A DNA stretch of 64,000 nucleotides from Mycobacterium sp. (lineage in GTDB: Bacteria; Actinomycetota; Actinomycetes; Mycobacteriales; Mycobacteriaceae): positions 1 to 64,000 of the forward strand of contig JAGYKK010000017.1 in NCBI GenBank assembly GCA_018401645.1, read 5' to 3'. Of this stretch, positions 28,707 through 31,510 are shown in pieces (the first letter of the stretch is position 1; each line of letters opens with the position of its first letter). A program made the position numbers and the translations under genes. The notes beneath the pieces were generated by a model. It had not been told where the DNA came from, searched no databases, and saw only the letters and a list, made by a program, of their open reading frames with translations.

Positions 28707-31510
28707 TCAGACGCGCGCCTTCTCAACCAGTTCGTAGGTCTCGATGACGTCGCCTTCCTTGATATCGGCATACGTCACGGTAAGACCACACTCGTAGCCC
28801 TCGCGGACCTCGGTTGCGTCGTCCTTCTCCCGCTTGAGCGAAGACACGGTGAGGTTCTCGGCGACGACGACGTTGTCACGCAGCAGTCGAGCCTTGGCGT
28901 TGCGGCGCATGATGCCCGACTGCACCAGGCAACCCGCGATGTTGCCCACCTTCGAGGACCGGAAGATCGCGCGGATTTCTGCCCGCCCCAACTCTCGCTC
29001 CTCGTAGATCGGCTTGAGCATTCCCTTGAGTGCGCTCTCGATCTCATCGATCGCCTGGTAGATCACCGAGTAGTAGCGGATCTCCACGCCCTCGCGGTTG
29101 GCCAGTTCGGTTGCCTTGCCCTCGGCTCGGACGTTGAAGCCGATGATGATCGCATCCGAGGCCGACGCCAGATTGACGTTGGTCTCAGTGATGCCACCGA
29201 CACCACGATCGATGACCCGCAACTCCACCTCGTCGTCGATCTGGATGCCGAGCAGGGCTTCCTCGAGCGCTTCGACGGTGCCGGAATTGTCGCCCTTGAG
29301 GATCAGGTTCAGCTGACTGGTTTCCTTGAGTGCCGACTCGAGGTCCTCGAGACTGATCCGCTTGCGCGACCGGGCGGCCAGCGCATTGCGCTTGCGTGCA
29401 CTGCGCCGGTCGGCGATTTGACGGGCGATGCGATCCTCGTCGACGACCAGCAGATTGTCGCCGGCTCCCGGAACCGAGGTGAAGCCGATCACCTGCACCG
29501 GTCGCGACGGGGTCGCCTCCACGATGTCCTCGCCATGTTCATCGACCATGCGACGGACGCGGCCGTAGGCATCGCCGGCCACAATCGAGTCACCGACACG
29601 CAGCGTGCCGCGCTGAATGAGCACGGTGGCCACCGGACCGCGGCCGCGGTCCAGATGTGCTTCGATCGCCACACCCTGTGCTTCCATGTCGGGGTTGGCC
29701 CGAAGATCCAGCGCTGCGTCGGCGGTCAGCAGCACCGCCTCCTCGAGTGCCTGGATGTTGATGCCGTTCTTGGCGGAGATGTCGACGAACATGGTCTCGC
29801 CACCGAAGTCCTCGGCCACCAGACCGTATTCGGTCAGCTGCGACCGGATCCGCTGCGGATCAGCACCTTCCTTGTCGATCTTGTTGACCGCCACAACGAT
29901 GGGCACGTCGGCCGCTTGCGCATGGTTGATGGCTTCAACCGTCTGGGGCATGACACCGTCGTCGGCCGCCACCACCAGGATCGCGATATCGGTGGCCTTC
30001 GCGCCGCGGGCACGCATGGCGGTGAACGCCTCATGGCCCGGGGTGTCGATGAAGGTGATCAGCCGCTCGTTGCCGTCATGGGTGACAGCGACCTGATAGG
30101 CACCGATGTGCTGGGTGATACCGCCGGCCTCGCCCTCGCGCACGTTGGCCTGACGAATGGTGTCCAGCAGTCGGGTCTTGCCGTGATCGACGTGACCCAT
30201 CACGGTGACCACCGGCGGACGGACCACCAGGTCGTCCTCCCCACCGGAGTCCTCGCCGTAGGTGAGGTCGAAGCTCTTCAGCAGTTCCCGGTCCTCGTCC
30301 TCGGGCGAGACGACCTGAACGACGTAGTTCATCTCCCCGCCGAGGAGTTCGAGTGTCTCATCGCCCACCGACTGGGTGGCGGTCACCATCTCGCCGAGAT
30401 TGAACAGCGCCTGAACCAGCGCGGCCGGGTTGGCATCGATCTTCTCGGCGAAGTCGCTCAGCGATGCGCCGCGGGCCAGGCGGACGGTTTCGCCGTTGTC
30501 GCCGTCGAAGTAGACGGCCTTCATCTTGACCAGGTCGATCACGCCCTGGAGCTTGTCTTCCTTGCCGATCGGGAGTTGCATCGGAATCGCGTGGCAGCCG
30601 AGCTTGTCCTTGAGCTGCTGTACAACCCGCTCGAAGTTGGCCCCGGTGCGATCCATCTTGTTGATGAACGCCAGCCGCGGCACCTTGTATCGCTGCATCT
30701 GCCGATCGACCGTCATCGACTGGCTCTGCACGCCGCCGACGCTGCAGAGCACGAGGATCGCCCCGTCGAGCACCCGAAGACTTCGCTCCACTTCGACGGT
30801 GAAGTCGACGTGGCCGGGGGTGTCGATCAGGTTGATGTCGCAGTCACCCCACTTGACGCTCGTGGCGGCCGACGTGATCGTGATCCCGCGCTCCCGCTCG
30901 AGATCCATGTAGTCCATGGTCGCCCCATCCCCGTCGCCCTTGACTTCCTGGATCCGATGGATGCGGCCCGCGTAGTAGAGGATCCGCTCGGAGAGGGTGG
31001 TCTTGCCGGAGTCGATGTGGGCGGAAATGCCCATGTTGCGAAGCTTCGAGAGATCCATTCAGGGGCACCGGCCTGGGGACGAAGTTGCGGGCGCTCGACC
31101 AGGCGCGAGAGAACGGATTGTTGCCCACCGCGGCGGGCGCGGACCGCCGGGCTTGGGTGCGGCACTGGGCCGGGTTGGGCGCCGGGTTCGGCGACCGGAC
31201 TGGGAGCCGCGACCACGACCTCGGCGGGGACGGGCGGGACCGGGGCCGCAGGCTTCGTGGCCGGCGGCGCGACCGGCGCTACCGGTGCGACAGCGACCGT
31301 TTCGGGCTTTCTCGCCGGCGCCTTCACCGGGGCCTTCTCGACCGGCTTGGGCCCGCCGAACGCTTCGCGCAGGCGGCGCGCAGCCGGCGCCTCGACCGTC
31401 GATGACGCGGATTTGACGAATTCTCCCTGTTCGCTCAGTCGAGCGAGTACTTCCTTGCTGGTAACACCGAGTTCCTTCGCTAACTCGTGTACGCGAGCCT
31501 TGCCTGCCAC
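28707..31510 (-). CDS. infB: Translation initiation factor IF-2, anomalous: mycobacterial N-terminus and core separated by an EF-G-like segment, with frame changes near 31060-31130
   Basis: N-term [62 protein letters not shown]; core [43 protein letters not shown]...[19 protein letters not shown]. Confidence 0.9.
30482..31058 (-). other. EF-G N-terminal GTPase segment embedded in infB
   Basis: [70 protein letters not shown]...[70 protein letters not shown]: unmistakable EF-G G1-G4 signatures. Confidence 0.93.

Follow-up and report, generated by a model that had tools for sequence, protein, structure and literature searches.

A planctomycete EF-G fragment in a Mycobacterium infB gene, almost certainly an assembly chimera

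The locus

The window, which is the whole stretch of 64,000 nucleotides that was analysed, lies within a contig of 72,839 bases (C52). The draft genome it belongs to consists of 142 contigs totalling 3,003,678 bases, is 85.67% complete and 0.38% contaminated, and was probably derived from a metagenome.

On the minus strand, positions 28707 to 31058 form a single open reading frame of 783 amino acids. Its first 193 codons are those of elongation factor G (EF-G), and these run in frame into the core of IF-2, the product of infB. The IF-2 family model (NCBIfam TIGR00487) matches residues 191-782 with 784.8 bits, against a cut-off of 424.4, and the G domain and C-terminal domains of IF-2 are present. 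Pfam places a GTP_EFTU domain at residues 5-203, with IF2_N/IF-2 domains thereafter.

The EF-G part is less complete. The strongest stretch for the EF-G model (NCBIfam TIGR00484) covers residues 1-228 and scores 384.9 bits, which falls short of the 659.4 required for a full-length EF-G. The piece is cut at residue 193 and so never reaches the G5 motif, which leaves it short of a complete GTP-binding domain. In the donor family G5 reads CGSAYKNKGVQ and is found some 65 residues beyond the end of the piece, at about residue 258. Roughly 500 residues are missing in all, including G5 and domains II-V.

The mycobacterial IF-2 N-terminus starts upstream, at 31510, in a different frame from the fused ORF, and the IF-2 frame is lost before the junction. 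N-terminus and linker are not in frame with the core: the former is in another frame, and the latter has been replaced. An earlier, sequence-only reading of this DNA had described the EF-G start running into the IF-2 core, the IF-2 N-terminus in other frames, and a segment that ends before G5, and on all of these it was right. Its headline of two GTPase modules, with EF-G "spliced into infB", is not upheld as biology, and the first module is incomplete. The features are collected in Table 1.

Table 1 Features of the infB locus, in coordinates of the window.
Feature	Position	Strand	Basis
Genuine mycobacterial IF-2 core, to stop	28707..30479	-	88-90% nt to relatives G253, G111, G194 and G127
Right junction, 19-nt stretch common to planctomycete fusA and mycobacterial infB	30480..30498	-	Base-by-base comparison of 16 planctomycete and 9 mycobacterial loci
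Foreign segment, codons 1-193 of planctomycete fusA (EF-G), G1-G4 motifs only	30480..31058	-	nt and aa identity to Planctomycetes family
ORF with IF-2 N-terminus (IF2_N) and first half of Ala/Pro linker	30827..31510	-	Pfam IF2_N, E 1.4e-14; frame comparison
Left junction zone	31059..31094	-	End of mycobacterial match and start of planctomycete similarity
Damaged mycobacterial IF-2 linker stretch, several non-triplet indels (before VGNNPFS, at CCGCGGTGGGC, after TTCTC)	31095..31175	-	Pairwise alignment with three relatives

Origin of the foreign segment

Counting from the EF-G ATG, the 579 nucleotides from 31058 down to 30480 align without gaps to fusA in numerous assembled Planctomycetes genomes. 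The best public match is CAMDDJ010000008.1, at 91.4% nucleotide and 96% amino acid identity. The family to which this best match belongs was searched for a donor closer still: about 35 of its 72 genomes match at 86-91% nucleotide identity, and none exceeds 91%. Judged by this similarity, the donor group is a family of freshwater Planctomycetes, where "freshwater" goes by the record titles: many of the best records come from lakes.

The host has its own intact EF-G on another contig (C50), with an open frame of 720 amino acids, and this protein is 59% identical to the foreign segment. No host protein comes closer, and a host paralogue was ruled out as the source. That the segment is non-native and of a Planctomycetes type had been proposed from the letters alone, and these identities agree with it.

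The remainder of the contig is Mycobacterium, a genus assignment read from the IF-2 sequences and the order of the genes. Among the matches listed, same-genus matches reach 87% over 2.3 kb, and 88-90% inside the IF-2 core. Both flanks are largely colinear with two relatives (G253 and G009), gaps apart. The inserted piece is of a different taxonomic origin from both of its flanks.

Two public records with a planctomycete-type EF-G (L067 and L043, both at 4001-4579) carry unexpected names. L043 matches the foreign segment at 91.4% nucleotide identity, ungapped over 580 nt. One of the two is called uncultured Luminiphilus; the other is called Candidatus Kuenenia stuttgartiensis, although its EF-G falls among the Planctomycetaceae. 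Both bins are possibly mislabelled or contaminated.

The junctions

At the right junction, the window tracks planctomycete sequence down to 30480, and mycobacterial sequence from 30498 onward. Over these 19 nt the window and the nearest Mycobacterium disagree at one position, 30489, and the base that the window shows there occurs in some planctomycetes. Going by this mismatch and by the sequences known so far, the strictly identical overlap could shrink to about 9-10 nt. Relatives encode NGETVR or NGE(T/V)IR here. The shared NGETVR had been spotted before at 30481-30498; the observation stands, with its extent refined by one base.

The left junction is less clear. Mycobacterial similarity stops at 31087-31089 in most relatives, and at 31072 in two of them, while planctomycete similarity starts exactly at the EF-G ATG. 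The bases at 31059-31088 score weakly against both planctomycete 5' regions and mycobacterial linkers, and could be either a planctomycete 5' region or a damaged mycobacterial linker. The sequence just upstream of fusA varies among planctomycetes, which means that the abrupt edge at the ATG shows where conservation ends and need not be where the two sequences were joined. The sequence-only reading put the left edge within a few bases of this ATG. The edge is indeed there, but the physical junction is not pinned to it: going by the alignments, it can fall at any point between 31059 and about 31094.

The last 80 mycobacterial bases before the left junction hold several non-triplet indels close together, and compared to three aligned relatives the IF-2 frame is broken there. 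No direct repeats were found flanking the foreign piece. The sole repeat returned by the edge search is a 16-nt inverted pair, 88% identical, inside the foreign piece.

The replaced linker

In the 25 relatives with a fully readable linker, 156-191 codons rich in Gly, Pro and Arg separate VGNNPF from NGE. The GC content of this linker is 78-82% overall, and up to 89% in windows of 150 nt (six relatives measured). In our window the same landmarks are some 630 nt apart (31128 to 30498), versus 468-573 nt in the relatives, and the linker is missing. The foreign piece takes the place of exactly this GC-rich stretch, so the earlier remark that the Pro/Gly/Arg-rich linker is gone was correct. The conserved end of the linker was sought across the whole assembly and not found, and the same goes for a planctomycete-type remainder of EF-G.

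Looking for the junction in sister genomes had been suggested as a check. The planctomycete EF-G start pattern, allowing up to 3 mismatches, does not occur in any of the 385 other Mycobacterium genomes searched, the nearest included. The gene is uninterrupted in relatives, and the linker is intact in all 25 in which it can be read whole.

This place is prone to assembly breaks. Of 46 Mycobacterium drafts, 18 have a contig that ends upstream of the IF-2 core at a distance of 1 kb or less; contig counts and genome sizes predict 1.8. The 46 are drafts of at least 20 contigs with a plus-strand match among the matches listed, that is, the better-matching genomes. In 200,000 simulations of contig ends the count never exceeded 10. 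Examples of drafts that break near the linker are L125, L127 and L147. Further chimeras could be hidden at this recurrent break point.

Interpretation

The foreign segment is almost certainly an assembly chimera across the infB linker, which arose either in assembly or in library preparation. The evidence in hand consists of the donor group, the host, the replaced interval, the shared right junction, the damaged left junction and the breaks in other drafts. The very GC-rich and repetitive linker would have been poorly covered, and an assembler or gap filler may then have bridged it with fusA reads from a co-resident freshwater planctomycete. Re-entry into infB would have been by way of the roughly 19 nt that both genes have in common, and that encode NGETVR. 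In the source organism IF-2 is most likely of the ordinary kind, its linker 156-191 residues long as in the relatives. The exact donor was not found, the nearest known one being at 91% nucleotide identity, so its presence in the same sample as the host is inferred.

Chimeric contigs are common in metagenome assemblies built from short reads. In a short-read mock-community benchmark, megahit produced 22 chimeric contigs per genome and SPAdes 2.6 (PMC11261854). Library preparation loses fragments of extreme GC content, and GC-rich ones are under-amplified (PMC13245658). As a counterpoint, GC-rich genomes were over-represented in the benchmark's own Illumina data (PMC11261854), so the direction of GC bias varies with the library. 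It also counts against a chimera that no exact donor was found, that the overlap at the right junction may be as short as about 9-10 nt, and that the joined ORF is in frame, the chance of which is about 1 in 3.

A genuine illegitimate recombination, by which a planctomycete fusA fragment entered infB of this lineage and replaced the linker, is very improbable. There would then be a Mycobacterium lineage whose IF-2, 783 residues long, is translated from the start codon of EF-G and carries an inactive, incomplete GTPase domain as an EF-G-derived extension where the N-terminal region used to be. The open, in-frame ORF and the complete IF-2 core would suit this, and so would the short common sequence at the right edge. 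E. coli that expresses only the shorter IF2-gamma isoform is viable, if slow-growing (PMC12297416), so a cell may survive without the N-terminal part. Given also the complete core, function alone does not settle the matter against a recombinant. However, not one of the 385 other genomes has the fragment, the stretch it replaces is precisely where drafts of this genus break, the edges have no repeats, and the N-terminal frame would have to be damaged simultaneously. The 9% nucleotide divergence from the nearest known donor is equally compatible with a recent transfer and with a co-resident species that has not been sampled.

It is hardly credible that selection for some new function has produced a functional translation factor with two GTPases here. 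There are two GTP_EFTU-type stretches in one ORF, but the EF-G piece ends 65 or so residues short of G5, domains II-V are missing, and the arrangement is seen in a single genome. A literature search for EF-G/IF-2 fusions found nothing relevant. The sequence-only reading had ranked a working fusion below both chimeric assembly and illegitimate recombination. That ranking is supported, and of its two options the chimera is favoured.

Compared to Mycobacterium IF-2, the core from NGETVR to the stop and the nusA-ylxR-infB-rbfA order are the same, but the GC-rich linker is absent and the N-terminus is out of frame. The first 193 residues share their G1-G4 motifs with the EF-G of freshwater Planctomycetes, which unlike this piece continues with the later domains. 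Inter-species chimeric metagenome contigs likewise have foreign sequence joined to the host's, a short common junction and a frequent break point. The window differs from these in that it has two junctions, with host on both sides, and not a single switch.

The apparent fusion very probably has no biological significance. If true, it would mean that part of a core translation factor had been replaced from another phylum. The case is useful as a caution: a bridge over the infB linker can yield an open, in-frame and plausible "fusion" gene that is acceptable to annotation, and the contamination figure of the bin failed to reveal the chimera.

Other observations

The distance between ylxR and nusA is about 1.36 kb in the nearest relative (L154; G253:C266, about 4638-6000), versus nearly adjacent genes in the window.

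The stretches at 36558-38070 and 38084-39524 cross-match: in G253 and G009, the sequence that corresponds to the one is also matched by the other, at about 68% nucleotide identity. From this similarity they look like neighbouring paralogues.

At 51431-53686, on the minus strand, there is an ORF of 751 amino acids with the motifs GMTCAAC, CPCALG and DKTGT. By these motifs it looks like a heavy-metal P-type ATPase, and the stretch is missing at the same place in G253.
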